NCBI GenBank assembly: GCA_020466095.1
Contig: CM035806.1
Coordinates: forward strand, 61,986,059-62,050,058
DNA: 64,000 bases
Direction: 5' to 3'
DNA from: Chlorops oryzae
Lineage: Eukaryota > Arthropoda > Insecta > Diptera > Chloropidae
Below, piece by piece: positions 8,802 through 31,057 of the stretch; positions within the stretch are counted from its first letter, which is position 1, and each line of letters begins with the position of its first letter. The notes below the pieces were generated by a model. That model ran no database searches, was not told the origin of the DNA, and saw nothing but the letters and a program-made list of their open reading frames with translations. A program made the translations under genes and the position numbers.

Positions 8802-11579
8802 TTGTTGGGTACGGCGATAATAAAATTGCAAAATAAAGACAACATTCTTTACGTCAGAGCTCTGTTAGACTCAGGTTCCGAAGGCACTTTTATTTCCCAA
8901 AAAATACAGAGGAAACTTAAGCTACCTGTGTATTCCGTAAATGCTAATATAACCGGGGTAGGGGCGTCTGTGAGCGCCAATTCCATGAAAGCATGTCGCA
9001 TTTTAATAGGTTCCACACGATGTTCCGACTTGAACATAGAAACTACCGCGTTAGTGTTACCGAAGATAACAGGTGATCTTCCCTCCTGCTTCATCGAGCC
9101 CTCGTATTTTTTAAATATGCCTAAAATGCCTTTAGCTGACAAAGATTTTGCGAAAAGAGCTTCCGTTGAGGTCCTCCTAGGTGCCGATCTCTTTCCAACA
9201 ATTCTCCGTAGTGGCATCAAACGCAATATTTGTGGGTCCTTGGTTGCGCAAGAGACAGTTTTCGGGTGGATTTTAACGGGGCCAATCAAGTTACAGCATC
9301 CTATTTCTGTAACCGCGAATTTCTGCTCATGTGATGTCGTCCCTTTAGAAAGAGCACTTACGCGTTTTTGGGAGGTGGAGGATCTTCCGCAGCAGAGACT
9401 TGAGTCCGAAGAAGAGCAATATTGTGAGGAGTTATTCAAGAGAACCACTAAACGAAATGAAGAGGGGCGCTATATAGTCTCTCTACCTTTTAAACTCGGT
9501 TTTCCAACACAAATTCAAATAGGCGCGTCGCGTAAAATCGCATTAGCGCAGTTCCTTCGCAATGAAGCGCGGTTAAAGAAAAACGTTCAGGCTAAGGATG
9601 AATATGACGGCGTACTTCGGGAATATTTAGAGCTCGGGCATATGGTTCCAATTCCACAAAATTCCACTGATCCCATCGAATCCACTTTCTATTTGCCACA
9701 CCACGCTGTTATAAAGGCGGAAAGTACCACCACGAAGGTTCGCGTTGTGTTCAATGCATCGAGTCCGTCCGATAATTCCGTGAGTCTCAACGATGTACTG
9801 CATACCGGTCCTGTGTTACAATCCGATTTGACGCTGCTCATTCTTCAATGGCGATTTTTCCGATATGTTTTTAATGCTGATATCCAAAAAATGTATAGGC
9901 AGATTCTTGTGACGCATAATCACACTCCATTCCAAAGAATTCTATTTCGTCAGGCAGCAGGACGAGATGTCGAAGATTTCGAATTAAAGACCGTTACTTT
10001 TGGCGTTAATTGTGCACCTTATCTCGCTATTCGCACACTTCTGCAGCTAGCAGAAGATGTGAAGGAATCTTTTCCTCTAGCAAGCGAGATATTGAAAAAA
10101 TACATGTATGTGGATGATGTATTAGCAGGTGGTCATTCAATAGAAGCAACAATTGCTGCGCGCGATGAATTAGTGTCCGCGTTGAACTCGGCTGGATTCC
10201 CACTACGAAAATGGGCGGCGAATGCTCGAGAATTGTTACACGACATTCCTAAAACTCACCTTCTTCGCGAAGCTTTCCTCTTATTAAACGAACATAGTGT
10301 CGCCAAAACTCTTGGCATCAGATGGAATGCTCAATCTGATGCTTTTTATTTCCATCCAGATCCGTTGCCAGACCACCCCAATTACACCAGAAGGGAGATT
10401 TTGTCGCAAGTCTCCAAATTGTTTGATCCCGCCGGCTGGCTCGCTCCCATAATCGTTTCTGCTAAAATGTTGATGCAGGAAATTTGGTTAGCGAGGATTG
10501 ACTGGGACGCTCCGCTCCCTGCTCCATGTGTCACCAAATGGAATTTGTTCCGAGATAATTTCGCATTCATTCAGGAAATTACCGTTCCGCGGTGGGTTAA
10601 TTATCTGCCTGAAGGCGACGTCGAAATCCACGGTTTCTGTGATGCTTCCGAGAAAGCATACGCAGCCGCGATTTATGTCCGCGTGCAGTTAGGCGACGAA
10701 ATTTCTTCACACCTGCTCACAGCTAAAAGTCGAGTAGCTCCCGTTAAAACGTTGTCTGTGCCTCGTTTGGAATTGTGTGGTGCCGTCCTCCTCGCTGAAA
10801 TGATTCAGGCTTTCTCTAACCACCTACCGTTCAACCACGAAAAGCTGTTTTTATGGACAGATTCAACCATCGTCCTTGCATGGCTCCAAAAACCCCCCTG
10901 CCACTGGAAGAATTTTATCGCAAATAGGGTTTCCAAAATTCTACAATGTATAGGTCCATCGACATGGCTCCACGTTGATTCCGAATATAATCCCGCTGAT
11001 TTAGCAAGCCGAGGTGTGACCGCTAGGGAACTACGGGTTAACGATTTGTGGTGGCACGGCCCTGCTTGGCTTCCGTTACCATTGGCGCACTGGCGAACTC
11101 CCAGCGCGGCCTCTCCCTTCGAAACTGACTTAGAAAAGAAACCGCTTCGAGTCCATGCAGTCATTGTAGATCCGACTGAGGACATTCTGGAGAGATTTTC
11201 TAATTACTCTAGAGCCGTTAGGGTCCTCGCGTACGTCAGTCGTTTCGTGCTCCGGACGTGGAAAAACCAACGAGTGCCTAAAGCGAAGTTCGACTGCCAA
11301 ACTTTACATTTAGATAGTCACGAAATTTCGGAAGTTCAATTTATGAGTATAAAACTAGCTCAACGAAAGGAATACGCAATCGAATATGCGGCACTACAAA
11401 ACAAAAAATCCATAGCCTCAACTAGCTCGATCTTAAGTTTGAACCCATTCCTCGACTCGCGACAGATAATCCGTGTGAATGGCCGACTAGCGGCTAGCCC
11501 CAGCCTCACCTACAATGAACGTCATCCAATAATTATTCCGTATAACTGCCGTTTATCTCGTCAGATACCCAGTCGGTGA
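8802..11579 (+). pseudogene. pol: BEL-1 Pol, truncated before the integrase core
   Basis: A 925-codon frame carries the BEL/Pao pol order: retropepsin (LLDSGSEGTFIS near residue 20), reverse transcriptase (FNADIQKMYRQI, then YMYVDDVLAGG near residue 436), RNase H (FCDASEKAYAAAIYVR, LWTDSTIVLAWLQ), and the linker into the integrase zinc domain (ERHPIIIPYNCRLSRQI). The usual H2C2 zinc finger, DDE core and DUF5641 tail are missing. The frame runs into antisense viral sequence at about 11560-11572 and stops at 11579. The upstream junction with gag needs a one-base shift near 8750. RT and RNase H motifs look intact. Confidence 0.85.
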
Positions 11580-12123
11580 CTTCTTTATAAATTTTAGCGT
11601 CGGTATATGGTGCCTTTCCATTTAAGGAGTGTAGATGAGTCAGTAGCATGTATGCTGGTCCGCTTTGGGCGGGGTCGCTACCGAAGATTCTTCTATATGC
11701 GTAGGAACTTAAACTGCGTAAGTGGTGACGGTAATAATCATCTAGGTGTTCAGCTTGGATTTTTTCAGTACTTGATAGTGTCTGTATTTGTGTGAGATAC
11801 CTTAACAGCTCACTTGCTACCTGTGGATGTCCGCAGGCTATAATAGACCTGTAGTGTAAGAATGTGGGCCAGGAACAGTCTAGATCAGCCGGGATAGGCC
11901 AGAATCGAGGAACCTGTCCCCAAAAACGTCTTAGACCTTCAACGCCGCGGGGTCGGGTGCTCCACAGGGTGCCGCTGCCCGTAGTTGCAGAGGGTCTGTG
12001 GACCGACAAGTGCAGGTGATAGGGTCGTGCATTAATGGGGCCAGATAGGCGACCAAGGGATAAAGGGACTCGGTATCTTCCGTGGCCCGGGTATCCCTCC
12101 GTTCCAGACTGAGGTACCCACAC
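11533..12123 (-). pseudogene. Totivirus-like RdRp ORF, N-terminal part only (endogenous viral element)
   Basis: This minus-strand frame resembles the region N-terminal to the polymerase core of insect toti-like viruses, with blocks such as WPTFLHYRSIIACGHPQVA, SSYAYRRIF and AYMLLTHLHSLNG. It is open upstream of 12123 as far as the slippery site at 12267-12273, in the -1 frame relative to the coat ORF. The catalytic palm motifs (GDD region) are absent because the viral copy stops at the BEL-1 pol junction near 11560. It is a fossil fragment and cannot encode an active polymerase. Family assignment rests on my recall of such proteins plus the genome layout. Confidence 0.65.
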
Positions 12124-12149
12124 ACCACAGTACTGGCCCTGACAATCGT

Positions 12150-12453
12150 CTATGCAGTTGAAGTTGATGGAGGCACCGTCTTGGACGGTGCTCCTTGTGA
12201 GCCCTGCGTAGTCGCGCTGACCGCTGGCTTTTCCACACCTCCTCCCACAACGGCCGCGCTCGCCGAGTTTTTTGAGTTGTGCTCTGTGGATTGTGATTCA
12301 ACTGGTTTGGTTTTGTCTTTATCGCTGGATGTGTTTTCTGACGGCTTTGGTTTCTTTGTGACCGGCGGTTTATCTCCATTGTTTCTCTTAGTAGGTACTG
12401 CTATCTTAGGCTTGATTAAAGGTGGGTCAGGATAATCGATGCGGGAAATCTGG
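12150..12453 (-). pseudogene. Totivirus-like coat protein ORF, C-terminal end beyond the Polinton
   Basis: This is the coat-protein frame continuing on the far side of the Polinton. It ends at a TAG at 12152-12150. Polinton plus one duplicated target copy is 15360 bp, a multiple of three, so the frame class is the same on both sides. The tail is rich in Lys, Pro, Ser and Thr and looks disordered. The slippery heptamer lies inside it. The stretch is separated from the main coat ORF (27820-30601) only by the Polinton. Confidence 0.65.
12267..12273 (-). promoter_or_regulatory. -1 ribosomal frameshift heptamer (AAAAAAC)
   Basis: On the minus strand the coat frame reads A|AAA|AAC, the canonical X-XXY-YYZ pattern. 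A -1 slip enters the frame of the RdRp ORF, which is then open down to about 11533. The coat stop lies 115 nt downstream (12152-12150), giving the CP/RdRp overlap typical of totivirus-type genomes. A pseudoknot was not modelled. Confidence 0.65.
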
Positions 12454-12459
12454 AACTTG
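12454..12459. repeat. Polinton target-site duplication, left copy (AACTTG)
   Basis: AACTTG stands directly before the Polinton terminus AGTAGG and again directly after its other end (27814-27819). A 6-bp duplication is the Polinton hallmark. Confidence 0.92.
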
Positions 12460-12671
12460 AGTAGGTAGGATTAGCCGATTCTAGGTCAATGAAAACCTGC
12501 GCAAAAAGGCGCGCAAAAGGGGGCGCAAAAAAAGGGACCGCAAAAAGGTACCATAAGAAAAAGTGTCTCAAAAATTGTTGTAAAAAGGGGGTGCAAAAAA
12601 AAGAAAAAATTAAATAAATAAAAGATCAAAAACAAAAAAAAAAAAACAAAAAATATGTGTCTACTTACTTT

Positions 12672-12965
12672 TCAATGTGTAAGATGAATATCGCAATCAT
12701 CATCATCATCATCACATAAACATATCTGCAGCAATTTATTGCTGCATGATATAAAATACAGTCCACTTTGAAGGGCCTGTATTCCTGGTATACAAAGATA
12801 TCCTTCATCCAGCTGAATGATTTTACCATCCTCTAAATGAAGGTGAAGTTTAACACTTGTCCTAGCATTTAATTCAATCGAAAATCCGCAAATTCTATTT
12901 AAATTTAACTTGAATTGGTTAGGATATTCAATCCCATACAAATTAAACTTTCTTATGAAATCCAT
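12672..12965 (-). CDS. Polinton TIR-encoded orphan protein, left copy
   Basis: A 97-codon ORF with ATG at 12965-12963. The protein begins MDFIRKFNLYGIEYP, has a compact predicted beta-rich middle, and ends in an acidic run (DDDDDD) followed by CDIHLTH. A TATA box (GGTATAAAAG) lies at 13008-13001, about 40 nt upstream. Because it sits in the terminal repeat, an almost identical copy is encoded at 25898-26191 in mirror orientation. I recognise no family. Conservation of both copies may reflect selection or simply TIR homogenisation. Confidence 0.65.
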   Translation of the reverse strand: MDFIRKFNLYGIEYPNQFKLNLNRICGFSIELNARTSVKLHLHLEDGKIIQLDEGYLCIPGIQALQSGLYFISCSNKLLQICLCDDDDDDCDIHLTH

Positions 12966-13000
12966 CTTTCGTTATGATTTTAGAAACCGAAAATTTGTTC

Positions 13001-13008
13001 CTTTTATA
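13001..13008 (-). promoter_or_regulatory. TATA box of the left TIR ORF
   Basis: TATAAAAG lies on the minus strand about 36-43 nt before the ATG at 12965. The mirror copy is at 25855-25862. Confidence 0.55.
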
Positions 13009-13103
13009 CCAGTTTTAATTGAGAAAAAAGAAAGAAGAATGTTCAAATCAACATGTCCCGGAAAAAAAAAATAAAAAAAAAAAACAATTTGGTTGACCTA
13101 GTA

Positions 13104-13333
13104 GGTAGGTAGGTTGAAGTGGCTGCCACTTAGGTCGTAAATCGGTCCATTGTGATACCAAGGAGGTTTTCTTGTGCTTGTGTGAGTGTTTGTCTTTTTA
13201 TGTAGTGTGCCCCCTAACATGCGATTTTTGGAAACCAGTGCTAGGCTTAGAACATTACATTCCATTTCGCCTGTGCCGGGAATCGAACCTCGGACCCTGA
13301 GATCAAGAGCATAGCACGCTATCCCAGAGCCAC
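13104..13333 (-). mobile_element. tRNA-derived SINE inserted in the Polinton left arm
   Basis: On the minus strand the 230-bp element starts GTGGCTCTGGGATAGCG, has a perfect pol III B box (GGTTCGATTCC) about 50 bp in, and ends in a CCTA-type tail. It is flanked by an 11-bp duplication TTGACCTAGTA (13093-13103 and 13334-13344). Its 3' part, but not its tRNA head, also occurs in the right TIR (25673-25767), which suggests that gene conversion spread it between arms. A minus-strand ORF at 13098-13355 is a shadow of it. Confidence 0.8.
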
Positions 13334-13344
13334 TTGACCTAGTA

Positions 13345-13641
13345 AGACCACACAAAAAAAAAAAAAAAATTTTCTTATCATAAGAAAAGTCTAGAATAAA
13401 ACATCAATAACAAAAGTGAAATGTGTGCAAATAAATTTTATTTAAAACATTTTTTTTTGTAGAGGTTGTACAGAATATTAAATTTATAGACTAGTCCACG
13501 ATACCAACGATGGCCATGTTGACAATGTTGAATGATCATTAATATATTTTGTTAAAGCAATAGAGTTTCTTAGTGCACAAGCATATACCTTATTTTTTCT
13601 ACTCTTCTCCTTTCAATGATAATATACATTTTGTTTCTACA
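13345..13641. other. Polinton spacer without a gene
   Basis: AT-rich sequence between the left TIR/SINE and the first unique Polinton gene. No ORF or motif is seen. Confidence 0.5.
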
Positions 13642-14037
13642 TCAAAATTGTATAAACGATTTATTTCTTTCAGACGAATGAGTACAATCGATTTCTTTTA
13701 TTCCAGAAATAAGACAGTCTTGTAGTAGTTCCTTCGCCCACAATGCTTTTTCCTCGCCTTTAACATAGATTTGATAGTCTTTAAGAAGAAATTTGAGATA
13801 TTTTTTTACTTCAGCCAAAGTGAAGACACCAGAGTCCCAATCCAGCATATGATAATAGTTTTGTAGCCAAAAAACAGATTTTTTTTCATTATCATTTAAT
13901 AACCGAAAACTAAATGGTGATTTTATAAGAAAATGAACATATTTCTTTTCACTGAAGCAAAAAAATAAATCCTTGAAAATAAACTGGCTATTTATGCTTT
14001 GAAATCCTTGACAATCGAAAACAACAAATTTGAACAT
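13642..14037 (-). CDS. Polinton small conserved-type ORF (exonuclease-fold candidate)
   Basis: A 131-codon ORF with ATG at 14037-14035. It begins MFKFVVFDCQGFQSINSQFI, and later has KSPFSFRLL, an aromatic/His block (WLQNYYHMLDWDSG), and YVKGEEKALWAKELL near the end. I recall this layout (an IDxQGF start, a FKPPFPF-like box, then HH.L.W.G and YVKG) as a recurrent small protein of insect Polintons. The first strand-with-Asp resembles ExoI of RNase H-fold exonucleases, but other catalytic acids are not evident. A function in DNA metabolism is only inferred. It lies downstream of the capsid gene on the same strand. Confidence 0.5.
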   Translation of the reverse strand: MFKFVVFDCQGFQSINSQFIFKDLFFCFSEKKYVHFLIKSPFSFRLLNDNEKKSVFWLQNYYHMLDWDSGVFTLAEVKKYLKFLLKDYQIYVKGEEKALWAKELLQDCLISGIKEIDCTHSSERNKSFIQF

Positions 14038-14145
14038 TGTTTAAAATATCTCTGCTTGATGTTTTCCACGACGATGACGGCGATCCTTTTCATTCAAAGT
14101 CTAAGAATGAACTAAATAATTACCTATGTAAATTTATGATTTATA

Positions 14146-15538
14146 TTACATATGCTTTACAATGCCACCAGTCGTTGGTTTATACGAAAAAAGTCGATCG
14201 TGTATTAGAACACAGTATGCAGAAGTGTTTGCTCTAACGTTGGCACTTGTTTTAAACATTATACGAATATCAAAAGCACCAGTCTTAATACGCTCATTTT
14301 GATGTGATGTATCAATGACAATTATTGGATTATTTTTAAAGCTCTCTCGCGATAAAAGTGGTTGTGGATCAATCATGTAGTAGCTCTGTTGAAATCTTGT
14401 ATACATATCATATAGGAGAGCATATCGATCGCGAGACAAATTTAAATTCAAATCATCATAAGGATATGTCTCAGAGTTAAGTTGCACCTTTAAGTCAGTC
14501 AAATTGCAAGCAGTAAATTTTTCACCATTCTCAAATGCAACAAGAATAAAGCGAGGGCGCTCAATTTGTGTCCCCACTTTTATATTCCAAGTATGATTTT
14601 GGCCTTGTAGAAGCTCTGGATAAAGATGTGATTCCCATGTTCGAAATGCGATGGGTAGAGGAGTATCATTTTTAATAGTGGTATAGATTTTTAGTTTTGC
14701 TTCATCGGATAACTGAATGTGTGGAACTTTCCATGATACATTCGCCAACTGTAAGTTGAGTGCCTGAGTTTTTTCAACCTCATCTGTGGTAAAAAAAAGC
14801 CTTACTATCCGATCTTGAGCGCAGTAAGATAAGCTCATGTTTACAATTAATTATTATTTTGTTAAAGTCTTCAGCAAAACCCATAAGCATTTTAAGTGGG
14901 ACACAAAAATTGAAATGTCCACTAGCTGGTTGAATTTTTTCGTCTAGCATCCAACCGGCGTTTTCCAACATTGTGCTAGCATTAGGGTTAAGAGACACGA
15001 GATTTTTAATTTTAGTGGTTTGACCTAAGCATCGTGTTCGATCAATTTCAATGCCATTCAACTCATAACGTATTTCCTCGAATAAATGTGCGACAGCATT
15101 ATTTCGAATTTGAACTCCTTTTGGCACTGCTCTAGCTTCTCCAATTGTAATAAAGCCTTCAATGTACAAAAAGCTTTCATGGGGTAGAATGTAAACATCT
15201 TGATTTTGAATTGCAATACGTATTTCATCATTGCTACCAAAAGATTGTAAATATATTGCATATATATCTAGTGTAGCACCAGAAGTTCGTTTTTCATGAG
15301 TTTCATAGTCTTCGATAATATATTTCGCAATGTCATCAAATTCATATGAACCAATAGGAAGCACAATTTTTTCATCAGCAATATGAAAAATATTATTGGT
15401 TTCATCAACATTCGGCACTGAGTAATAGGTATGAAAATCAATCAGTCCACAAACATAGTCCCGGTTAAGCTCTATGGGAGGAAAATAATTTGCCGTGAGA
15501 ATTGATGAATTTCCAGTCAAAGTTAATGTTCTTGACAT
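14146..15538 (-). pseudogene. Polinton double-jelly-roll capsid gene, frameshifted and apparently fused to penton N-terminus
   Basis: Two overlapping minus-strand frames, 15538-14780 (252 codons) and 14838-14146 (230 codons), together make the Polinton double-jelly-roll-type capsid protein. The first half has FLYIEGFITIG, HLFEEIRYELNGIEID and FNFCVPLKMLMGFAEDFNKI; the second has WKVPHI, a long beta-rich body and AYCVLIHDRLFSY near the C-terminus. The frame changes at an 8-base A/T run at 14791-14798, so a one-base indel is likely. The first 75 residues (PPIELNRDYVCGLIDFHTYY, LPIGSYEFDDIAKYI) look like the start of the separate Polinton penton/minor-capsid protein, so an internal deletion may have fused the two. 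A TATA box lies 47-54 nt upstream. Confidence 0.7.
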
Positions 15539-15584
15539 CTTGAATAAGAAAATTAAACTGAACCAATTAAGAAAATTAAACTTC

Positions 15585-15592
15585 TTTTTATA
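15585..15592 (-). promoter_or_regulatory. TATA box of the capsid gene
   Basis: TATAAAAA (preceded by ACTA) on the minus strand lies 47-54 nt before the capsid ATG at 15538 and overlaps the last codons of the integrase ORF. The spacing is similar to that seen before the ATPase and TIR ORFs. Confidence 0.5.
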
Positions 15593-16505
15593 GTATATCG
15601 TCTTTATTAATCCATGAGTTGTGTTGAGATGAAAATCCCAACCATTTTACATACACTTTATTATCCTGTTTCTTAATAACTTTCTCTACTAAATATGTAT
15701 GTGGATAACGTGATTTAGATAACTCTTCCTTATAGAAAGCGCCTTTGACAATATTACCCTGATAGTCCTCTAGTGTGTAGGTACATGGATTGGTATTTTG
15801 AATTTTTTTTATTTTAAAGATTTCCGTTGTCCAATTGGGTGTGTAACCCTTCTCAAAAATATGTTTATATTTGCTTATTCGTACATAATCGTTCACATGA
15901 AATTTTGGTTTATCATAGATTTTCAGACGATTGTAAGCTGTTTGTAAAATTAAAGCTTCATTCGAAGAATCGACATCATTTGGCGCCATTTTTATAGTTC
16001 TATGCACTGTGTTATTGTATTTCTCAGTTAAGTTATCATACTCATCAATCCATTTGTATGATCCACGATTGCTAAACTCCTTCCACATCATATTTTTTAG
16101 AGTTCTATTAAATCGTTCGACAATCGACGCTTTCAATGTACTATAGGTCGAATAATGATTAATTTTATTTTGTTTCATTAAATTTTGAAAGTCCTTGTTA
16201 AAGAATTCTTTTCCATCATCTGTTTGTAAATTTTTAGGTTTTCGGTTACGTTCCAAGATATTTTTCATTGCTTTAGTGACGTCTGCAGCTGTTTTAGATT
16301 TCAGTGCAACTGTCCATGCAAATTTTGAGAATGTGTCAATGATTGTAAGAAGATAGCGGTAGCCTTTATTGTGAGCAGCATAGCTACCCATTTCAACCAA
16401 ATCAGCTTGCCAAAAATCATCGAGACCTTTTATGATGACTGCTCTACGTCTAAAGTTTCGTCGTGCTTGTCTATGTAGCTCCTGAACTATTTGACTGCGA
16501 CTCAT
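15588..16505 (-). CDS. INT: Polinton integrase (retroviral-type, with chromodomain)
   Basis: A 305-codon DDE integrase that inserts the linear element DNA into the chromosome. The core runs from about residue 28 to 190: first Asp in DFWQADLVEM (D35), second in LQTDDGKEF (D96), and the Glu in ASIVERFNRTLKNMMW (E130). The last about 38 residues (YLVEKVIKK...VYVKWLGF...SWINKDDIL) form a chromodomain, as is usual for Polinton integrases. The ATG at 16505 overlaps the end of the 154-codon ORF by 35 nt. All catalytic residues are present and the length is typical, so the gene looks intact. Confidence 0.92.
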   Translation of the reverse strand: MSRSQIVQELHRQARRNFRRRAVIIKGLDDFWQADLVEMGSYAAHNKGYRYLLTIIDTFSKFAWTVALKSKTAADVTKAMKNILERNRKPKNLQTDDGKEFFNKDFQNLMKQNKINHYSTYSTLKASIVERFNRTLKNMMWKEFSNRGSYKWIDEYDNLTEKYNNTVHRTIKMAPNDVDSSNEALILQTAYNRLKIYDKPKFHVNDYVRISKYKHIFEKGYTPNWTTEIFKIKKIQNTNPCTYTLEDYQGNIVKGAFYKEELSKSRYPHTYLVEKVIKKQDNKVYVKWLGFSSQHNSWINKDDIL

Positions 16506-16935
16506 ACTGTTGACGATTGTGCTCCTTCTGTGATATTTTTTTCGAAGAATTTATGTTATTAACATTTGAAATCATTGAAAACAAAACACTTTCCATACCG
16601 TCTAGACGTTTTTCAATGTATTCCATACATGTCTTAAAGTTCTCATCAATAACGTTTTCATTAGATTTAATTTTATTATAAATGGCTTCAACTTCTTTAT
16701 TGCTGTGCTTCTCATGAGCTTCAATCGAACTCTGAAATTCAGTTCGAAACACATTAAGATTGAAAAGAATAAAATTCTTGGTTGCAGCGTCTTGATCTTC
16801 TATTGGATCTTTTAGATTTTTAATGCGATGGAAATGGGCATTAAAGCAAGTATCCTTACCAACAGTCAATTGGGTACTAAAGTTATTTGAATTTTTAATT
16901 GTATTATTATAGCGACCAAATTTGTCAACGCCCAT
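16471..16935 (-). CDS. Polinton fibre-like protein with a coiled-coil C-terminal half
   Basis: A 154-codon ORF starting MGVDKFGRYNN. Residues about 37-56 (RIKNLKDPIEDQDAATKNF) match the short I-x-N-x-x-DP...DA(A/V)TK-x-(Y/F) motif that is common at the trunk of phage tail fibres. The remainder is charged, probably helical (heptad-like LNVFRTEFQSSIEAHEKH onward), then a Ser/Asn-rich tail. This suggests a trimeric virion surface fibre or adaptor, but that is inference. Its ATG overlaps the stop of the upstream DUF8207-like gene as TAATG, favouring translational coupling, and its 3' end overlaps the integrase start. Confidence 0.6.
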   Translation of the reverse strand: MGVDKFGRYNNTIKNSNNFSTQLTVGKDTCFNAHFHRIKNLKDPIEDQDAATKNFILFNLNVFRTEFQSSIEAHEKHSNKEVEAIYNKIKSNENVIDENFKTCMEYIEKRLDGMESVLFSMISNVNNINSSKKISQKEHNRQQYESQSNSSGAT

Positions 16936-18192
16936 TATACGATTATATTAGATTCTTTGAGCTCTTCAATAATTGAAATAATTTCGTTGTTATGATTATT
17001 ATGTCCAGCTGACTGTGATGACAAGAGCAGTCTCAGACGATTGACTAATTCATTAGGATCGTCCCAATATATATAGTTCGTGGGAGTAGAATTTAATTTC
17101 ATCAATCCAAATCCTTCTTTTTTCACATTTGGTGTGCTGGGGCTTGACTCGTGATCTACATCTTTGATTAACTTACGAATAATTTTGGTATACTTTTGAC
17201 CTTTGTTACCATTTATTTGTCCGTCTGATGTGTAGCCACGTCTATATGCATTGGTTTTTAATAAAATATGCTTATAGAGGTCAAGATCGGGTTGTTCATA
17301 ATATTGAGGAGATTTATAAAACATTAACTGATAGAACCCCGTTGTCATTGTAAAATGTTCATTTCCAATCTGAAACTCTTTAGAATTATTCCAGGTTAAT
17401 TTTGAATCTCCAAACATCCAATGTCCATCATCAAGTCTTTTATGCAAACCAAATTGAGTATCAAGATTATTTTGCTTTTCTAGTGTTTCAACACTCAATG
17501 TACTACTTGTACTCTTATTTCTCTCCACATCCACTTCTTCATTAAGTATTTTTATATGACTTTCTTGTTCTTCATCTTCGCTAAAAAACTGATCTTTGCT
17601 GCTGCTTGGAGTATCATTTTCAACATTTTCGGTGATGGTGGTGTTGGAAAAATTTTTAAGCGGTGTGCTTGATTTTATGTTAAACAAATCATATTTTTCA
17701 AATCTACTGCGGTTTGGTCTTTCATTTCTAAATCTACTCCGGCTCGGCCTTTCATTACTGAAAACCACCTTTTTCCCAATCAATCCTTTTTTATTAAAAG
17801 TAGAATTATTAGGGGTATTCACAAAGGCGTGTTAAAAACGTTGGAAAGTCGGAAAATCGGAAAATTTTGACTTCTTAAAAAATTTTTAAACATTTTTTGT
17901 AACTTGTGCAACTTTTTAAGCAGATAAAATATTCAGATTTTCCGACTTTACTATTTTCCGACGCCTTTGTGAATACCCCTATTGTCTGTTGCTAGCTTAG
18001 AGTTTTCATTCAAATTGTTTAATATTTCGTTTTTAACTTTAGTTTCTGTAAGTAGATCTTTAATTGGTGTAGTTATGGGAAGAAACGATTTCTCAAGACT
18101 CTCGGCAACACCTTGTTCATTAATTTTGATGGCATTGAACTTATCTTTCAAGATTTTTCTCGTCTGAATTATGTTCTTTAACAATTTTTCAT

Positions 18193-18196
<4 letters not shown>
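16935..18196 (-). pseudogene. Polinton DUF8207-like protein, split by a MITE
   Basis: The N-terminal exon-like part (18196-17982) begins MDEKLLKNIIQTRKILKDKF and is a Lys/Glu-rich probable coiled coil. The C-terminal part (17811-16935) has a basic, Ser/Arg-rich stretch, an acidic stretch, and then the conserved block DGHWMFGDSKLTW...MTTGFYQLMFYKSP...DLDLYKHILLKTNAYRRGY, which I recognise as the DUF8207-type domain of insect Polintons. Its function is unknown; a virion or core role is plausible from its operon-like position before the fibre-like and integrase genes. A 169-bp MITE at 17812-17980 interrupts it and introduces stops. A TATA-like CTATAAAGG lies at 18294-18287. Confidence 0.7.
17811..17981. 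mobile_element. Short MITE inside the DUF8207-like gene
   Basis: The ends are AGGGGTATTCACAAAGGCG and its complement CGCCTTTGTGAATACCCCT, about 170 bp apart, with further internal complementarity around TCGGAAAATC/GATTTTCCGA. ATT on both sides (17808-17810 and 17982-17984) fits a 3-bp target duplication. No coding capacity. The family is not identified. Confidence 0.75.
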
Positions 18197-18197
<1 letters not shown>

Positions 18198-18225
<28 letters not shown>

Positions 18226-18226
18226 C
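18198..18226. repeat. Long T homopolymer
   Basis: About 28 T residues (A on the gene strand) sit between the TATA-like box at 18287-18294 and the ATG of the DUF8207-like gene at 18196. It looks like an expanded A-rich leader. Confidence 0.8.
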
Positions 18227-21616: not shown

Positions 21617-24600
21617 TTAGTCTATATCCATATCTTCACTAGTAACAATACTATAGTGCCCCCATGCAAAAGTATTAATACCATCTGATTGAATACACCT
21701 CTTGTCATCTGTATTACTTAATACTACTTTTTTCCACAATTCGGTGTAAATGGCATGAAACTTACTTCTAAACATATACATACTATCAAAATAGATCTTA
21801 TTTTCTAACAAACATAATCGATAATCGTCAATAGTTAATTTCATTAATGCAGCCTTTTTGACTCCTTTAGACTTTTTTATTTCAAAATTGTCTAAAGTTT
21901 TTAATGAATACATTTTCGATCTGAGCCCAATAAACTCTTTAATTATTCTTCCACTAAGCTCATCCTTCATCATTCCCAAAACTTTTTTATTTCTAAGAGG
22001 AATTTTAAATTGATTATCTGGAGAATAGTCTGATGTATCAAAATTGAAATCGATATCAGGAAAAATTTCTTTATAAAAATCAGAATTTTCAATACTATAT
22101 ATGAATGAATCAGTGTCCATATAATTTAAAGACAGATGTTTTCCAAATTTCGGTAGCATATAATCATAGTGGAAACTATACATTTTATGTTTTGACAACT
22201 CTAATACTGCGAAACCCAAATACATGGGCTTGTCATATAAAATTTTTTCTTTTTGCAGTTCTATGGATATTAAATTGTCTGTGAAAATTTTAATACTACG
22301 AAAATTTGGTTTAGATATGAGAGCTTTAGCACCAAGCCGTTTACCCTTACTCTCCCACTCTTCTACTAATTTTATATTTCTTCTCTTTTCAATATTTTCC
22401 ATAGTTTTACCGTACACTGCATTATTCAAAAGCTTAAAAAGATTTTTCTCAAAATCGTTTTTAGCATTTTGTCTACACTCAGTATTAAGGTCTATGCATT
22501 TTTGTAGCCAAGAAGACTGTTTGAACTCTAATATTCGATGAACTTTTACTAGTTTAAGACCATGTTTTAAACACTGTTGAAGAACTCTATAATGAATGGT
22601 ATAGTTATGTTTGGGAGTCAAGTCTGCTAAAAGCTTTGCAATTTTTCCGCCTGGTGGCTTCTTGTTTGCTGGACAAAATGGAAGATCATTATGTAAGTCA
22701 TGAATTTCTTGTGGATATTCCAAATCAACTTCTAATATGTAGCCAAATAGTGAATCGGGTGGTATTGAGAAGACATTAAAATTTTCAATATTTTCTAACC
22801 ACTTGAAACCTCCATAGGGCAAATATTCGGACATTGCATATCCATACAAATTATTTGCGTCTAAATACACAATTGTGGATGAAGGCTTACTTGCATCATA
22901 ATCTTCCATCATGTATATATTGTTTGCAGTAGAATGTCTTTTGCTACATTGAACCAAACCACCACGTATACCATTTCTTATTAAATAGAGCATTTCAATG
23001 TCAGTTAAAAGCTCTAGTTCTATTTTTGTGTACTTAAGCATTGCATCCCATGATAGCGCTGGTAATGTTAAATATTGACACGGGTCCAATTTATAAATAT
23101 TTTGAGAAACTCTTCTAAAGTTTTCCATAACATCAGCTAGCAACAAAACATCTGTCTTTAAATATATAGACATATAATCGCAAAGCGTTGTACAATTGAA
23201 AAACTGCCAAACATTTTGAGCATGTTGATAATCTTCAATGGTACATGCTTTGTTTGTTAGTTTATTGAAAAAAGATTCACGTGGTGGCAAGCTTGTTTCT
23301 GTTAGACTTTCAAATGATTTAATGTAATCATATGGAAATATACCTTTACGTGTTAATAAATTTTTTTCGTCATCGTCGTGAAATTCTGTACTCAAAATAT
23401 TAAAGCTGTCTTTCTCCAGATTTCGAGCTAAGGTGTCTAGGCTGGCTGGTAGAAATTTAAATGAGTCCAGAAAACGTATTTCCGCATGTTGTTTATCTTT
23501 AGATGTAAAGTGTTTTGCCAATGAAATATACTTTTCGTTATTGAGCGCAACTACACTAATAGAACCAGGTAAAAAATTTAGTTTTTTAACAAATAAATGG
23601 CAATCATATGCCGAAAAGTTATGGAAAAAAATGGGTATAAAACGACTAATTTGAAATTCTAGATTGCATTTAGAGTGTGCTGCACCTCGAAATTCTCCTG
23701 TTAAATGGCAATGATCTATAATTTTTGTGTCATCTAGTGGCAGCTCGCAAATATGAAAATTCATTGCATTATCAAAAGAAATCTGTTGGCTTCTGGAAAG
23801 CGGATTCATTTCTTTGAATTGAAAAACATTGTTTTCCAACAATGGTACACAATCCTCATAAATTCTTTTGACGAATACCTCGGCTGCATTTTCATCATCT
23901 TCATTCGCTTGGACATACATTTGAAATCTATCTAGACTGGAATCAAAACTGCATTTAATAAAATAACTAAAGGCAATCGGTTTGTGTGTCTGAACTCTTG
24001 TTACATATTCAGATTCTTGTTCATTTGTTGGAAGTAGCATGCATTCAAAGTCTGCATATACTACAAAAGGAACATTTAATTGTTTTTTATAATTCTTAAA
24101 CTTAAGAATATCATTTTCACCTTTTACTGGTAACTCTGTTACCGTTCGGTTGCAGTACTTTAAATGTTTCTCCAGTGTTTCGTTCCTCTGGAAGAACTGC
24201 AAACAAAAGTTACACATATGGATTGTGTGACCGTGTTTACTACTTTGTGTACTCAATAATCTGAAAAAAAAAGAAGAGGAAACAATTTTTTGATGTTGTT
24301 GTAAATACCAATTATGACAAGGTTTTCTACATCAATAGCTATTATATAAAGCATTTAAATGCTAACCTTGAGATATTCTTTATCCATACGTAGTGGAAAT
24401 TTTCTTCTTTTTCCAAAAGAAGCAGGTTTAAATGTATTGGTTTCAAAGTGTTTGTCTTATAGTATGGCCCAATAATGCGTCCTTTTTCCTCTTGAAACCC
24501 AAAAATATTTACACTGATAAGAGGATTATTGTCTTCGAAAATTGCAACATCCTTCACAGGAAGAGGAAAACTTAGTCCATCAAAGTTTAATATGATGTTC

Positions 24601-25535
24601 TCTTCGTTGAGAGCAATGAAGTTTTCCTCTATGTTGACTTCATATGTGGAACATCTTGATGAGTTGTCAGGAAAATTGTAAAAAGCTGATATAATTGCCC
24701 ATTTGAAGCAGTATGGGTCATTGTTTTGCACATTTATTACAGCTTTTTTTGAGACTAGAACTGTAGGAGTTTGTATATATGATGAGCCTCGGATCGGTCT
24801 ATATTGATTGACGTTAAGTTCTAGCCACAATATTTTTGAGAGTGCCCAGCCGCTATCCTTCTCCTGAAACTCTTCCATCCGTTTACATATTTTAACTATG
24901 TCTTTAGAGTATATCTCTTGAATATTGGCTTCACTCTGAGCTATTGCCATTGTTGTTTGAAACGACTTTTGACTAATATTAGTTGTTTCTTCTCCGTCAA
25001 TGATTTTAAATTTGATGTACTCGCAAAAGAGCTCCATATTAAATTTAAATAGCTTGTGTTTAACAAGAGTTTGTTGTAAAAGCCTTCTGACGTGGGGTTC
25101 CACATTTGCGAAAAAATTCAACGGTATCAAATCGTCAACGTGTTTGTTTTCAATTTGAAAACATTCTATGCGATTCTTAAACAATGTTCTCACCTTCTTA
25201 ACATTCTCGTGTAGGAGCGTTGACGTATTCGCTTTATGGCTTGATTTCCGCAAATGTTTGGACCAGTTGCATATCTTTATCCACTCCTGGCAATCTTGAC
25301 AGTTTTTTAATTTCAATAATAATTTAGGTTTGGTCTTTGTGGTTGTTGTTGTTGTTGTTGATGTTGATGCATGTTTTAAAGCTTTATGCTGCATCAACTT
25401 AGTTTTTCGCGAATACTCTTTGTCGCAAACATTACACTTCACTTTTGCTTTTTCATGGATCGTCAAAATATGACGTGTTAAGTCACGTTTATACTTATAA
25501 ATTTTATTACAAGTTTTACATGTAAATGTACTCAT
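21617..25535 (-). CDS. pDNAP: Polinton protein-primed DNA polymerase B (two exons)
   Basis: This replicates the linear element from protein-primed ends. Exon 1 is 25535-24367 and exon 2 is 24260-21617. The exon lengths sum to 3813 nt, 1271 codons including the stop, in frame. N-terminal C2H2 fingers (FTCKTCNKIYKYKRDLTRH, VKCNVCDKEYSRKTKLMQH) are followed by another Cys2His2 cluster after the intron. Exonuclease: ExoI YADFEC (about 460), ExoII NFSAYD (about 605), ExoIII YLKTD (about 756). An endonuclease VII-like box DHCHLTGEFRGAAHSKCNL lies at about 572-590. Polymerase: motif A YLDANNLYGYAM (about 856), B LLNNAVYGKTMEN (about 1000), C YMDTDS (about 1104). All catalytic residues are present. 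Confidence 0.93.
24261..24366 (-). other. Spliceosomal intron in the pDNAP gene (106 nt)
   Basis: Donor GTTAGC at 24366-24361 and acceptor TTTTTTTTTCAG ending at 24261. Splicing joins an AG|A codon and connects the ISRL and LSTQSSK segments, which are contiguous in relatives. Without it an in-frame stop ends exon 1. Confidence 0.8.
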
Positions 25536-25597
25536 TTTAAATAGCTTCTTTTTTTTTTTTTTCAACACACTGTCCTGTTCAATGATCAAAAAATTTC

Positions 25598-25655
25598 TGA
25601 ATTGAATCTTAAAGTGGACTTCGTTTTATACTAAACTATGACCCACTCACACATA
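25598..25655 (-). promoter_or_regulatory. pDNAP promoter region (duplicated at 26998-27058)
   Basis: On the minus strand it contains TATAAAAC (25630-25624), about 90 nt before the ATG at 25535. The whole block, GAATTGAATCTTAAAGTGG through CACACATATCCG on +, is repeated almost unchanged in front of the 172-codon ORF. Confidence 0.6.
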
Positions 25656-25854
25656 TCCGTTTGACCATCTGGAACACTCACACAAACACAAGAAAACCTC
25701 CTTGGTATCACAATGGACCGATTTACGACCTAAGTGGCAGCCACTTCAACCTACCTACCTACTAGGTCAACCAAATTGTTTTTTTTTTTTATTTTTTTTT
25801 TCCGGGACATGTTGATTTGAACATTCTTCTTTCTTTTTTCTCAATTAAAACTGG

Positions 25855-25862
25855 TATAAAAG
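25855..25862 (+). promoter_or_regulatory. TATA box of the right TIR ORF
   Basis: GGTATAAAAGG with its core 36-43 nt before the ATG at 25898, a mirror of 13001-13008. Confidence 0.55.
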
Positions 25863-25897
25863 GAACAAATTTTCGGTTTCTAAAATCATAACGAAAG

Positions 25898-26191
25898 ATG
25901 GATTTCATAAGAAAGTTTAATTTGTATGGGATTGAATATCCTAACCAATTCAAGTTAAATTTAAATAGAATTTGCGGATTTTCGATTGAATTAAATGCTA
26001 GGACAAGTGTTAAACTTCACCTTCATTTAGAGGATGGTAAAATCATTCAGCTGGATGAAGGATATCTTTGTATACCAGGAATACAGGCCCTTCAAAGTGG
26101 ACTGTATTTTATATCATGCAGCAATAAATTGCTGCAGATATGTTTGGGTGATGATGATGATGATGATTGCGATATTCATCTTACACATTGA
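25898..26191 (+). CDS. Polinton TIR-encoded orphan protein, right copy
   Basis: The 97-codon mirror copy of the ORF at 12672-12965, differing by one residue (Gly instead of Cys before the Asp run). It is transcribed divergently from pDNAP, with about 360 bp between the starts, and has its own TATA box. The family is unknown. Copy number two per element would double its dosage. Confidence 0.65.
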   Translation: MDFIRKFNLYGIEYPNQFKLNLNRICGFSIELNARTSVKLHLHLEDGKIIQLDEGYLCIPGIQALQSGLYFISCSNKLLQICLGDDDDDDCDIHLTH

Positions 26192-26391
26192 AAAGTAAGT
26201 AGACACATTTTTTTTTTTTTTTTTTTTTTGTTTTTGATCTTTTATTTATTTAATTTTTTCTTTTTCCTTTTTCTTTTTAGGCAAATAGTTCTTAACATTA
26301 AATTTTTTATTTAGAAATGTAAAATTATATATTTAATAAAAAAATAAAAATATTTTAAGTTATATATATATGTATATAATAAAAATATATT

Positions 26392-26910
26392 TTAATGAAA
26401 ATTTAAATATTGACTTAAATCATTTGGAACCACAAACGGTTGGGAAGGTGGAATATAATGTTGTTCTTCTTCTTCTTCTTCTTCTTCTTCCGCAATTTCG
26501 TCCTCTTTAGACAGCTCAAGCAATGGGTTGATCCCATCACCACTCTTCCTTACAAGATGCGGATAGCTATTTATATTTTCTATCGCTATATCCTTCATCT
26601 TGTTAAATCTAGGTGGAAGCACCAATTGTACTTCAGACAACTCCAATACAACCTTTGGCCCATATTTTGTTTTGATGCGCTTCGCCAGCTCCACTACGAA
26701 GGTTTTATTAAAAGCCATCTTTGACATTGACAAAAATGGTTTGTTCAATTTTTGCTTCGATATAGCGTTAAAGCTAATACAGCCAATGTCCTTGTCTGTT
26801 GCTACTGAAACTGATGGCGCTGTTGCTGATCCTGTTGGCTGTGTAGGTCCTGTTGGTGCTACTGCTGATCCTGTTTGTGCTTTTGTAGATGAATTCATTT
26901 TGCGTCCCAT
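26392..26910 (-). CDS. Right-arm-only orphan ORF with acidic tract
   Basis: A 172-codon ORF with ATG at 26910. The first 40 residues are Ala/Thr/Pro/Gly-rich and probably disordered. The middle (LNKPFLSMSKMAFNKTFVVELAKRIKTKYGPKVVLELSEVQLVLPPRFNKMKDIAIENI) looks folded. A run of Glu residues (encoded by a GAA microsatellite at 26464-26491) precedes a C-terminal SQPFVVPNDLSQYLNFH. Function unknown. Its upstream block duplicates the pDNAP promoter including the TATA box (27032-27026), so the two may be expressed together. Confidence 0.5.
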   Translation of the reverse strand: MGRKMNSSTKAQTGSAVAPTGPTQPTGSATAPSVSVATDKDIGCISFNAISKQKLNKPFLSMSKMAFNKTFVVELAKRIKTKYGPKVVLELSEVQLVLPPRFNKMKDIAIENINSYPHLVRKSGDGINPLLELSKEDEIAEEEEEEEEEQHYIPPSQPFVVPNDLSQYLNFH

Positions 26911-26997
26911 TTTTTTTTTTTTCTAAAAAAATTTTCAAAATTTCTTATTTATTAGTAGGTTCAAAAGTACACTGTACTGTTGAAGTGTTAGAAATTT

Positions 26998-27058
26998 TCT
27001 GAATTGAATCTTAAAGTGGACTCCGTTTTATACTAAACTATGACTCACACATATCCGT
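26998..27058 (-). promoter_or_regulatory. Duplicated pDNAP-type promoter before the 172-codon ORF
   Basis: Near-identical to 25598-25655, with TATAAAAC at 27032-27026. Differences are a C/T change and loss of four bases in the GACCCACTCAC word. Confidence 0.6.
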
Positions 27059-27813
27059 TGACCTGTTAAGAAAATTTTGTCTATCTTATTATTTGACTTC
27101 AATTTCCAACTACAGCCGATAAAAAAAAAAAAAAAAAAAAAATAAATAAAAAAAAAAAAAAATAAGGAACCCATCTGGTTGAGCGTGGAAAACTATTATA
27201 AAAGATCTCTCACAATGATAGCGATATGCTAATGTCTTAAATTTCTTACCTGCTTTTTACATATTCTCCTGCATTGTATTTGAAATGCATCAAAAGATCT
27301 TTATTGCAGCAAAAGGGTACCTATTCATCTTTTTTTTTTACCGTCGTAAATATTGTAAATATTTTAAAGTTATAAACATCATGCTCTCCCGTCGACAATG
27401 ACGAGTTCGTTTTCTAACAATTCATCTTTTAACACTTGTTTTCCCATCGACCTTGAAGAATTCGTTTTATAGCACTTTAAAATACACCAAAAGGACTCCT
27501 ATTCATCTTTTAACACGTGTTCTCCCATCAATCATGAAAAAATTAGTTTTTCAAAACACACACTCACACACACCCACATATTGATTTTTTTTCATTTTGC
27601 TACTTTTTTTGTGATACTTTTTACGACAATTTTTGAGACACTTTTTCTTATGGTACCTTTTTGCGGCCCCCCTTTTTTGCACCCCCTTTTTACAACAATT
27701 TTTGAGACACTTTTTCTTATGGTACCTTTTTGCGGTCCCTTTTTTTGCGCCCCCTTTTGCGCCCCTTTTTGCGCAGGTTTTCATTGACCTAGAATCGGCT
27801 AATCCTACCTACT

Positions 27814-27819
27814 AACTTG
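27814..27819. repeat. Polinton target-site duplication, right copy (AACTTG)
   Basis: The same six bases as 12454-12459, directly after the CCTACCTACT terminus. Confidence 0.92.
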
Positions 27820-30601
27820 GTGTTTTCCCACGATGATCGAGATGCATCGCTGTCCAACAGATATATCATGCGCTTGAAAGTCTGAATATTTCTCAACACT
27901 TGAACGGATTCGGTGGGGGTTGTACTACACAACAGGCGGCGATTGGCAGGTAATCTTCCTGTTGCATGCATTGATAAAAATTGGAACTGCTCAATCCAAG
28001 TTCCCTTGTAACGTGAAGGCAAGTCTAATCCGGGTGTTATATCTAAAAGCTGTGGCAGGTAAATTTCGGCGTCATTAGTAGAGCATATGTACGTTTTGAA
28101 TTTAATTACATCCATGTTTAACAAGATGCACTCAATTGGCTCATTATAAGCTAATGTTATTGTCAATGGCATGATTTGGCTAGGAGTGGTTGACAGCTGC
28201 AATTTCTCTAACCACTGTACGGTGGCATAGAAGGGAACAGGGCTATTTGTGTACCACTCCTGAGTATCATATGGATAAAGTCCATAATAAAAAGTTGGAA
28301 TCCAAGACATATCCCAGTTTGTCCATTGTTCATGCATATCATATGCTGCAATATGACCATAAAATCTGCCCACTAATTCATTTTTCACATCAGCTAACTC
28401 GCCTCTGCGTGATATTGATGGCCAAATATCGTTGTATCCTGCCCAGTCGCGGGTGGGAATGTCGTTGTTATGTAGATAAGTCGAATAATTTAAAGATGTA
28501 GCTACAGCAGCCATGTGCAACCATGAAGCAATGGCAGCTGCACTATGGAATACATATTCAAGATTTCCTCGTTCCATTAATCCAGACATGGTAGCAACGC
28601 GAATCATTGAACTAGTTGTGCAGATGTAGTACATAGTAGTGGTGTTCGTTCTGGAGCGAGTCCTGTCTAGTATTACCGGGTTATTATCTGCGTCAAAGTT
28701 TATTTTTGCTAGTCCAGAGGGAGGCAAGTGGCTTGGGGATAGTGAGGCTGCATTGTACCCATACATTAAATTCGTCATATCACTAATCCCGTTGTCTGAA
28801 AAATGGTTCTTTGTCAGACTTAAAAAGCGACTGCCATCAGCAAGGGGCGTAACGTCGTCATGTGTAGCCGTGGTTAGGTGAAACGCCCCGGATAAAGGGG
28901 AGTTGTAGTTATATCCCTTCCGTTTACTGTTAGGATGCACATACAATCCTGGCCTGTTCGCTAATATCATTTCAGATGCTCTCCCAAGTGCGCGAGATGC
29001 TGTGCCTTCAACTGTTGCCTCCTTCCTCATTGTTTCCCAGGATAAAGCAAGATTGTGCAAAATGTTCTGGAGATTTGTTGGAGTAAAATATGTGACCCAC
29101 ACGTTACCAAAATCTACAGGAGTCACCCGCTGAGCTCCGGTAAATATAGGAATATCGACCCCGAAGACTCTAGTTGACCTTGGGCATCCAAAAGACGACA
29201 TCTCCGTTAGCACTAGTATAATGTGCTTAGGCCCTGAGATATGTACAGTTGTTGATGCGGGAATATTTACGCTGTTTCCGCTCAAATTTTCTGAACCAGA
29301 CACTTTGTAATTGTGAGTATACGATGCAGCTCCGTAAGTTAACCCAGAGTCAAAATAGCTAGCGATAAATTCACGCACGTAGCAGCTAGCGAGTATTGCA
29401 TTAGAAATGGGTACTGCTATCCAGTCAGCATCTAAGCGTTCCGCTTTAAAGGGGGGTCTAGCGTCACATTCATTCTGTTGCCCTGCATCATGGCTAGAAA
29501 CGTATCGAGTGGGGTCGCTAACAGAGTGTAAACCCTTGGAGCGGGAGGAATGCGAGCTACATTTATATGTCCTGACTCTAATAGCACGTTCCTCATAAAT
29601 TGGACGGTTGTAGGGTCGACGGTACTCGATTGGCCGGATAGAGAGTGAATTAATAAAAGGTTCCTTACCATTGGAGCGACATCATACACTGTTGATGTGT
29701 CCTTGTCAAGTCCCTTAGTCAGTGCATATCTGTTAGATGGGGCTTGGAGTAGCGTATTCTTGATTGATGAACGGATAAAGGCTGGGGTATTTTCTGACAA
29801 GGTTTCAGCCAAGATAGTATATACTTGAGATCTATGAGCACCGAGCTGTTCATCAGCTTCGGGCATGCAGGCAGTGGTAACAACGCGAACAGGCACATAC
29901 GTGATAACACTTCTTGCAGTCAATGGGAGAACCTCTTCTTCTTCGTCGGCTTGGGACCCGATTGATGTCGTTTCAAGATCTGCTTGGGTCGAGTGGTTTG
30001 AAGGAGTGCCAACGTTACCTTCAACAGGGGAGCTGGAGTCGGTAGGTTCTAATTCCGATACACTGGGACGTGCCGACACTACACAGTTAAGATTTACGCC
30101 TATAACAGGGCCCTTACTTTGAAATTTCATTAATTTTGCATAGTGTTGCTGTACTGTCAGGAACCCTTCGTATCGTGTAAATATGTATATTCCGTCTTTG
30201 TATCCTCTCTGTACGATAGATGGGGCAAGCGCCAATTGGTCAGGAGTAGGAACACACACACTATCCGGTTCAGTCGCTGGGCGTGTACTTTCTATATCTT
30301 GTCGAGGAATAGCGATGAAGAGCGGCTTTTTTGTTATCCATGATGCAAGATAGGAAGAAGTAGTTGACGCAAACGTTGTATATGAAGTTGTATTTACACC
30401 GATCTTTCTGATCAAATCCTTGCCAGCAGGATAATCCTTCAATGAGTAGTGACGGCCTCCCACAACTGGTGGAGGGGCATTTAGCCAGTCTTTGATATAC
30501 GTGTTTTCTTTCTTGGTTTCACTTATATTGGATGTACTAGAATCAGTTAAGGCATCGTTTTCATGGGTTATCCCAATGACGGCACTAGGTTGTGCGGCCA
30601 T
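27820..30601 (-). pseudogene. Totivirus-like coat protein, main part (endogenous viral element)
   Basis: Two minus-strand frames, 30601-29432 (389 codons, ATG at 30601) and 29378-27789 (529 codons; open further upstream), read as one long coat-like protein with a single frame change close to a G6 run near 29450. They continue across the Polinton to the stop at 12152-12150, giving roughly 1000 residues, a coat size usual for insect toti-like viruses. The first part has a Ser/Glu-rich acidic insertion (about residues 185-225). There is no signal peptide. Absence of a polymerase signature here, the downstream -1 heptamer and the RdRp-like ORF support the assignment. Apart from the frame change and the Polinton, no stops are seen, so the copy is not old. 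Confidence 0.68.
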
Positions 30602-30702
30602 ACTTTAGCTATTTAGTTTCGATTATGTGTTATTGTTGATCTCCAAAGACATCGCCCACAACCTACCACCAGTGGAGCAAAATGAACTTTACAGCCACGG
30701 TG
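30602..30702 (-). other. Viral 5' leader segment joined to BEL-1 primer-binding site
   Basis: About 100 nt between the coat ATG (30601) and the inverted BEL-1 primer-binding site. No match to BEL-1 leader sequence is seen, so it is presumed viral 5' untranslated sequence. Confidence 0.5.
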
Positions 30703-31057
30703 CCGGCTCGAAGGACCACAATGTTTTTTCCTTGAAATGGGTGGACTGTAAATATAGTAATTGAGTTTGACTCGTGCAGAGCAACAAATCAAATTCACCG
30801 TTGAAAAGAAAGAAAAGCCGAATTAGAAACACGAATAGTTAGCTTTGAGCGATGGAGCGCTTTATTACCTGCTTCCAGGATGGAGAAACAGGAACTGAAC
30901 TTTCAAGTTCAGTTGTCTTAAAGTTAGACTTAAAGACTAAAAGTTGCTTGGAAAGCGAAATAGCAGCGGTATCTGTCTTTGAAGGCTTCTCTTTTTAATT
31001 CTCTTAGGTGTTATCAAAATGAGATAAAAAAGGGTTGCCAATCTGTTGGCCTAAACA
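30703..31057 (-). repeat. Inverted BEL-1 LTR with primer-binding site
   Basis: The LTR, 336 bp, is at 31057-30722 on the minus strand, followed by TTG, then TGGTCCTTCGAGCCGG (30718-30703), where BEL homology ends and viral sequence starts. Relative to 6377-6380 there are two extra bases (TG) at the LTR/PBS boundary. The boundary equals the end of plus-strand strong-stop DNA. Confidence 0.85.

Follow-up and report, generated by a model that had tools for sequence, protein, structure and literature searches.

How did totivirus-like DNA come to lie between two pieces of a BEL retrotransposon in the genome of the fly Chlorops oryzae? The question is raised by a window of 64,000 nucleotides (the whole stretch analysed, C1:61986059-62050058 in the 442-Mb genome; assembly GCA_020466095.1, contig CM035806.1), in which the long terminal repeat (LTR) element BEL-1 is joined to antisense totivirus-like (toti-like) sequence. 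L-numbered loci named below are other places in the same genome. An earlier reading made from the letters alone, here called the sequence-only reading, had described 11540-31057 as an antisense toti-like segment. This stretch was found to consist of three components, a Maverick/Polinton transposon, toti-like DNA and a probable host exon, and is not a single viral segment. Taken as a whole, the data make it probable that the locus arose by BEL-mediated retroposition with repeated template switching, the template being a cellular RNA that had been transcribed from an integrated viral element and then spliced; the precise order of the switches is proposed with less confidence. The pieces that bear on this were observed in the following order.

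6041-6376 (+): BEL-1 5′ LTR, TG...CA, 336 bp
6378-6395 (+): primer-binding site (PBS), 18 nt, from comparison with other BEL-1 copies
7442-8794 (+): BEL-1 gag open reading frame (ORF), DUF1759
8802-11560 (+): BEL-1 pol, truncated, with aspartyl protease, reverse transcriptase (RT) and Peptidase_A17
11548-11560 (no strand): junction 1, BEL-1 pol to antisense toti-like DNA; GCC at 11548-11550 is common to both and TATCTCG at 11554-11560 is shared with BEL
11561-12459 (-): toti-like segment, capsid protein/RNA-dependent RNA polymerase (RdRp) region, ending upstream of the RdRP_4 domain; 78% nucleotide identity to C3:8830589
27814-30640 (-): toti-like segment, capsid region plus the final 39 nt of its 5′ leader; the frame is broken at least once near 29.44 kb
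30641-30702 (-): probable host exon, assigned by position to the 5′ end of tafazzin; the match extends to 30705, overlapping the PBS by 3 nt
30703-30718 (-): 16 nt of the PBS; two extra bases between PBS and LTR relative to 6376-6378
30722-31057 (-): inverted BEL-1 LTR, 334/336 identical to 6041-6376
31058-31288 (-): 3′ internal end of BEL-1, with the purine-rich GGCGGGCGGCGA beside the LTR

The join between the probable exon and the viral DNA was analysed from both sides. On the host side, 30641-30705 was identical (65/65) to C1:13879498-13879562, the sole match at another place among the 40 of 57 candidates scored. The edge of this match at C1:13879498 falls exactly on a splice donor, TTTGGAG/GTGAGT, on the minus strand. 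Splice-site background was counted over 403 kb of strand, in which AG/GTRAGT occurred 13 times, the donor of the exon itself included. The next gene on the same strand, 5 kb downstream of the exon, encodes an acyltransferase whose sole PDB match was a tafazzin family protein; its first coding exon has an acceptor-like site just before it, at C1:13874468, and ends in TTAG/GTGAGT. Judged from this position and these splice signals, the 62-nt stretch 30641-30702 probably derives from the tafazzin 5′ exon.

At the viral end of the join, 39 nt separate the exon from the capsid ATG. Start regions were compared in six toti-like loci (L020, L021, L026, L038, L041, and L040; the sequence analysed at L039 stops short of the start), an acceptor-like site being defined as at least 13 pyrimidines in 15 positions followed by YAG, with 11/15 as a looser cut-off. 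Five of the six had such a polypyrimidine-AG before the ATG, at a distance of 39 nt in L020, 74 nt in L021, 44 nt in L026, 42 nt in L038, and 63 nt in L041; the background was 108 sites in the 403 kb. L038 is a near-duplicate of L026 (99.5% identical over 622 nt) and has two further acceptor-like sites upstream, and the start region of L021 contains a short internal duplication. Upstream of the AG, a common leader was present in L021, L026/L038, and L041, and the outer flanks of these loci were dissimilar to one another and to L020; the AG therefore lies inside the viral leader of this group and not in host flank. The host exon had no homologue in the stretches compared upstream of L020, L021, and L026, where scores fell within the shuffle range. 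The window copy has no leader at all upstream of the AG, and the AG is shared by both sides of the join, giving a 2-nt overlap.

The join thus has a donor edge on one side and an acceptor edge on the other, and such a coincidence of two independent coordinates is the pattern that splicing leaves. Splice coordinates on both sides of the join indicate a nuclear transcript of DNA that was already integrated, and they speak against the earlier proposal that viral RNA itself served as the template. The intron loss expected of an LTR-mediated retrocopy was accordingly seen by parts, as the exon donor edge and the viral acceptor position; a composite source locus was not found.

The leaders showed another feature. 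Two tandem hairpin-like repeats (CCRTGGTG..GGCGA..CACCAYG type) were present in L021 (9012-9156, minus strand), L026 (1510-1652), and L041 (1420-1528, minus strand). Kept across distinct integrations, with pairing judged by eye, they are possibly a viral translation or packaging element.

On the retrotransposon side, window positions 6041-11560 are BEL-1, 97-97.5% identical to full-length copies (L018; also L019). The DUF1759 gag, Peptidase_A17, RT, LTRs, and PBS are those of a BEL/Pao element, with an RVT_1 score in the window copy just below the Pfam cut-off; the PBS at 6378-6395 matches the 3′ end of what we take to be tRNA-Tyr. The end of BEL-1 pol had been placed near 11560, and this was borne out: 10 other places matched 11400-11560 at 94-98%, and all stopped there (40 of 50 candidates scored). 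The junction stretch 11548-11560 resembles viral relatives too. LTR-element sequence therefore lies on both sides of the captured copy, as BEL-1 pol up to 11560 and as BEL-1 PBS and LTR from 30703.

The two BEL-1 LTRs differ only by one adjacent dinucleotide, whereas 9-13 differing sites separate them from the LTRs of L018 and L019; they are as similar to each other as the LTR pairs inside L018 and L019, which differ at 3 and 7 sites, respectively. Together with the short overlaps at the joins described below, this agrees with the earlier view of the locus as a chimera made by BEL reverse transcription. The inverted LTR is followed by exactly 16 nt of PBS, as had been read; contrary to what had also been claimed, the viral end does not abut that PBS, since 62 nt of probable exon lie between. 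On its outer side the inverted LTR continues for about 230 nt into the 3′ end of BEL-1 itself, and the GGCGGGCGGCGA before it, which from its position is taken as the polypurine tract, is identical to that in L018. The LTR is thus no terminal fragment. Keeping both native neighbours, it is not strong-stop DNA primed at the polypurine tract; this appearance would be expected of a plus strand that started farther upstream and was extended as far as the tRNA. The sequence-only reading had named, as an outcome that would overturn the chimera, a later insertion of the LTR by itself, marked by a target duplication; none was seen, the element's own internal sequence bounding the LTR on both sides.

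Several other arrangements were considered and rejected. A single integrated unit bounded by inverted LTRs does not fit, as the sequence from 31058 is BEL-1 internal sequence and not flank, and its bases are unlike those at 6036-6040. Autointegration predicts joins at the LTR tips, yet on either side this LTR meets the sequence that adjoins it in BEL-1. Nor is the viral 5′ end intact at the PBS, since host exon stands in place of the leader upstream of -39.

The viral part is smaller than had been supposed. Antisense toti-like DNA makes up only about 3.7 kb (30640-27814 plus 12453-11561), and about 15.35 kb of the 19.5-kb segment is non-viral Maverick/Polinton DNA at 12460-27813, so that the extent given by the sequence-only reading was wrong while the toti-like assignment stood. 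The RdRP_4 domain was present in the relatives L020 and L025 by Pfam, and L020, the closest relative, shares 71-89% protein identity with the three toti-like pieces of the window in matching frames. The window copy stops upstream of RdRP_4 and gave no Pfam match to that domain; its placement as totivirus-like comes from homology to L020. A third piece, from the relative L021, matched no Pfam family. The 11561-12453 side matched 10 other places in the genome at 70-78%. Against the genome, with all 19 candidates scored, a 630-aa capsid piece gave 19 rows: the window itself plus 18 at 35-82% protein identity, several of which belong to a single locus. In the window copy, the capsid frame is interrupted near 29.44 kb. 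In L020 (1295-4375), the capsid region is open over 1026 aa and the RdRp side is split across several frames. RdRp-side copies in L022, L023 (two copies 3.9 kb apart), and L015 had a common 5′ match boundary, equivalent to window position 12156, as if one truncated copy had been multiplied at the DNA level.

The 630-aa capsid piece had no match at E ≤ 0.001 among 7997 scored candidates from a large protein collection (0/7997) and none among viral contigs. The three viral pieces had no match in PDB and no PHROGs family, and Rfam gave no match at the gathering level on two toti-like loci.

The transposon nested in the viral part was delimited by the following features.

12454-12459 (no strand): target-site duplication (TSD) AACTTG, left copy
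12460-27813 (no strand): Maverick/Polinton in toti-like DNA, from terminal inverted repeats (TIRs), TSD and protein matches
27814-27819 (no strand): TSD AACTTG, right copy

Self-comparison showed TIRs at 12460-12600 versus 27813-27673 (140/141 identical) and at 12598-13190 versus 26265-25673 (588/593), the right TIR (25673-26265 plus 27673-27813) being interrupted by an insert of about 1.4 kb. The ends read AGTAGG...CCTACT, with the 6-bp AACTTG at each flank. Inside were an rve integrase, which also matched a chromodomain weakly, a capsid of the double jelly-roll (DJR) type in two frames, and an A32-type ATPase. A 904-aa ORF (21620-24331) carries by eye what we presume to be polymerase-B-like motifs; it had no polymerase match in Pfam or PDB. 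In its TIRs, 6-bp TSD, rve integrase, DJR capsid, A32-type ATPase, and polymerase-B-like ORF the element resembles Maverick/Polinton transposons, and by all of these but the last it was assigned to them. It also encodes BIR (inhibitor of apoptosis) and phospholipase A2-like genes, at 18345-18833 and 19946-20773. The empty site was seen as uninterrupted toti-like sequence in three relatives (L020, L021, and L026). Because the toti-like sequence is continuous there, the Maverick was inserted later, which sets it outside the mechanism that made the chimera.

To the right of the inverted LTR, the mosaic continues with three more pieces.

31281-31496 (+): BEL-1 leader and beginning of gag, present a second time (= 7331-7545); shares 7-8 nt with the 31058-31288 piece
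31491-33362 (+): leader and gag of a second BEL family (BEL-2); 6-nt overlap
33360-33423 (-): 64 nt from the 3′ end of the BEL-1 LTR, inverted; overlap of 3 nt; cut off where a high-copy repeat ends at 33424

The BEL-2 piece matched 39 other places at 93-98% among the 40 of 1124 candidates scored, and none extended to the left of 31491. Successive overlaps thus measured 3 nt (PBS/exon), 7-8 nt, 6 nt, and 3 nt, given as raw lengths. Similarity at the presumed switch points therefore comprises four joins with 3-8 nt, plus the GCC and the partial similarity at 11548-11560.

Position 33424 is an exact end of the high-copy repeat, and a stretch 100% identical to it lies 37.6 kb upstream (C1:61981913) in the same orientation. 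Farther right, a large inverted repeat pairs 35412-37202 and 43514-46608 with 51957-56930; its arms are about 5 kb, its blocks 96.7-99.6% identical, and its centre 5.3 kb. A third BEL element (37198-43514), with LTRs 345/345 identical and an apparent 5-bp duplication CCCGT, is present in the left arm only.

The pieces and their order, the splice-like edges, the overlaps, and the later arrival of the Maverick are observed; for the intronic parent, the virus-like particle, the order of switches, and the mode of DNA insertion, we infer the following course. A toti-like sequence would already have been integrated in an intron, most likely between the tafazzin 5′ exon and the first coding exon. RNA polymerase II would have transcribed the host exon together with the integrated viral sequence, and the host splice donor would have been joined to the polypyrimidine-AG of the viral 5′ leader. 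The spliced transcript would then have been copied by BEL-1 RT, probably inside a virus-like particle: while BEL-1 plus-strand DNA was being extended through pol, a short similarity may have let it switch onto the spliced RNA. Synthesis would then have proceeded in the direction of the 5′ end of that RNA until a second switch, at CGG, led onto a further BEL-1 plus strand at its PBS end; this strand would have carried 3′ internal sequence, LTR, and tRNA-copied PBS. Later switches may have added the BEL-1 leader, BEL-2 gag, and the BEL-1 LTR piece. The mosaic would thereupon have entered the genome; afterwards a Maverick inserted into the viral part.

Several observations weigh against this course. 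The exon parent is present elsewhere (C1:13879498-13879562), but the assembly yielded no near-identical viral parent, 82% protein identity being the most that any relative of the 630-aa capsid piece reached, and the tafazzin region C1:13805000-13894400 had no toti-like match. With an LTR pair so similar, a recent parent might be expected, so that the parent must be lost, polymorphic, or unassembled. A target duplication was not demonstrated, positions 6036-6040 being ATAAC and the right outer end being cut by the repeat at 33424. The nearest relative, L020, is without the shared hairpin leader. The sixth start-region locus, L040, a distant relative, had no acceptor-like site in its leader even at 11/15 pyrimidines, which confines the acceptor to the closer group. 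Finally, the overlaps of 3-8 nt fit end joining equally well, and end joining could have made some of the joins.

The last point leads to the alternative that survives best, a mosaic formed at the DNA level, in which break repair linked BEL fragments, a spliced retrocopy, and genomic DNA through microhomology end joining and RT switched no templates. Nested repeats and a large inverted repeat do abound in the region. This alternative is possible although unlikely, and its chances overlap with those of BEL-mediated retroposition of the spliced transcript because both use a spliced template. The spliced exon would still require an RNA step, however; the two LTRs are almost the same, and the PBS breaks off after 16 of its 18 nt, with the two extra bases exactly at the LTR/PBS boundary, the expected tRNA-DNA junction.

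Direct capture from an infection is less probable still. An infecting totivirus would have supplied the first template for BEL RT, either its genome or its mRNA, the enzyme would then have moved to tafazzin mRNA where exon 1 ends, and the resemblance of the coordinates to a splice would be due to chance. The failure to find an integrated parental copy fits this, the polypyrimidine tract, plus the two hairpin-like repeats that three loci have upstream of the break, could make the enzyme fall off at that point, and the AG common to both sides supplies a 2-nt overlap for the switch. Nevertheless, the host break would have to hit a strong, rare splice donor exactly, and the viral break would have to coincide exactly with the acceptor-like AG of the relatives, which makes the reading improbable.

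The model of the sequence-only reading, a failed plus-strand transfer that joined plus-strand strong-stop DNA straight to totivirus cDNA, has very little left in its favour: the LTR does carry 16 nt of PBS and the junction is at the PBS, but about 230 nt of BEL-1 internal sequence on the polypurine-tract side would be absent from a product primed there, and a probable host exon separates the PBS from the viral DNA. In its plain form the model is therefore contradicted; what is kept of it, within the retroposition of the spliced transcript, is a plus strand of greater length that ends at the PBS.

Compared with known systems, the locus works like LTR-mediated retroposition, in which, as outlined in a review (PMC5408686, on Tan et al. 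2016), the enzyme of an LTR element copies ordinary mRNAs by template switching; full membership, in the sense of a target duplication and a viral parent, was not established. By that outline the two have in common a spliced mRNA, switches at micro-similarity, capture of part of the mRNA, and adjoining LTR sequence. Here, instead, a fusion of a host exon and an endogenous virus was captured, in a multi-part mosaic with an inverted LTR, without a demonstrated target duplication and with the viral parent absent from the matches in the assembly.

Totivirus-like endogenous viral elements (ToEVEs) of planthoppers (PMC10636211) likewise consist of totivirus-like capsid and RdRp DNA dispersed in an insect genome. 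That study reports exon-intron structure for three of them and a potentially host-derived N-terminus for one, and finds their presence highly variable between populations, which would make the missing parent of the window copy less odd. The present copy differs from the elements so described in being a spliced retrocopy fused to BEL, with an acceptor that appears to be derived from the viral leader. Among the titles and abstract openings in capped listings of open-licence papers, for the terms searched, no earlier description was seen of an LTR element capturing the spliced transcript of an endogenous virus.

A broader suggestion, offered only tentatively, is that one group of toti-like leaders carries a built-in acceptor, that sense copies in introns are spliced to the upstream host exon with the start codon intact, and that the resulting messages are spread by the enzymes of LTR retrotransposons. 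The suggestion is confined to one leader group because L040 is without the site. Should it be true, no new infections would be needed for viral fossils to increase in number and turn into genes, and tallies of endogenous viral elements would overstate how often infection occurred. The polypyrimidine-AG of the leader would be a simple, testable reason for intron gain in some toti-like elements.

The locus itself, once taken for a clean example of the entry of double-stranded RNA virus DNA into a fly genome, is better read as the re-copying of an older endogenous element. What appeared to be a snapshot of a virus passing into a genome becomes a traceable second step, in which integrated viral DNA was probably transcribed, spliced with a host exon, and recopied by an LTR retrotransposon. 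If this is right, endogenous viral copies can multiply from earlier copies via RNA, and each of them should not be counted as an infection.

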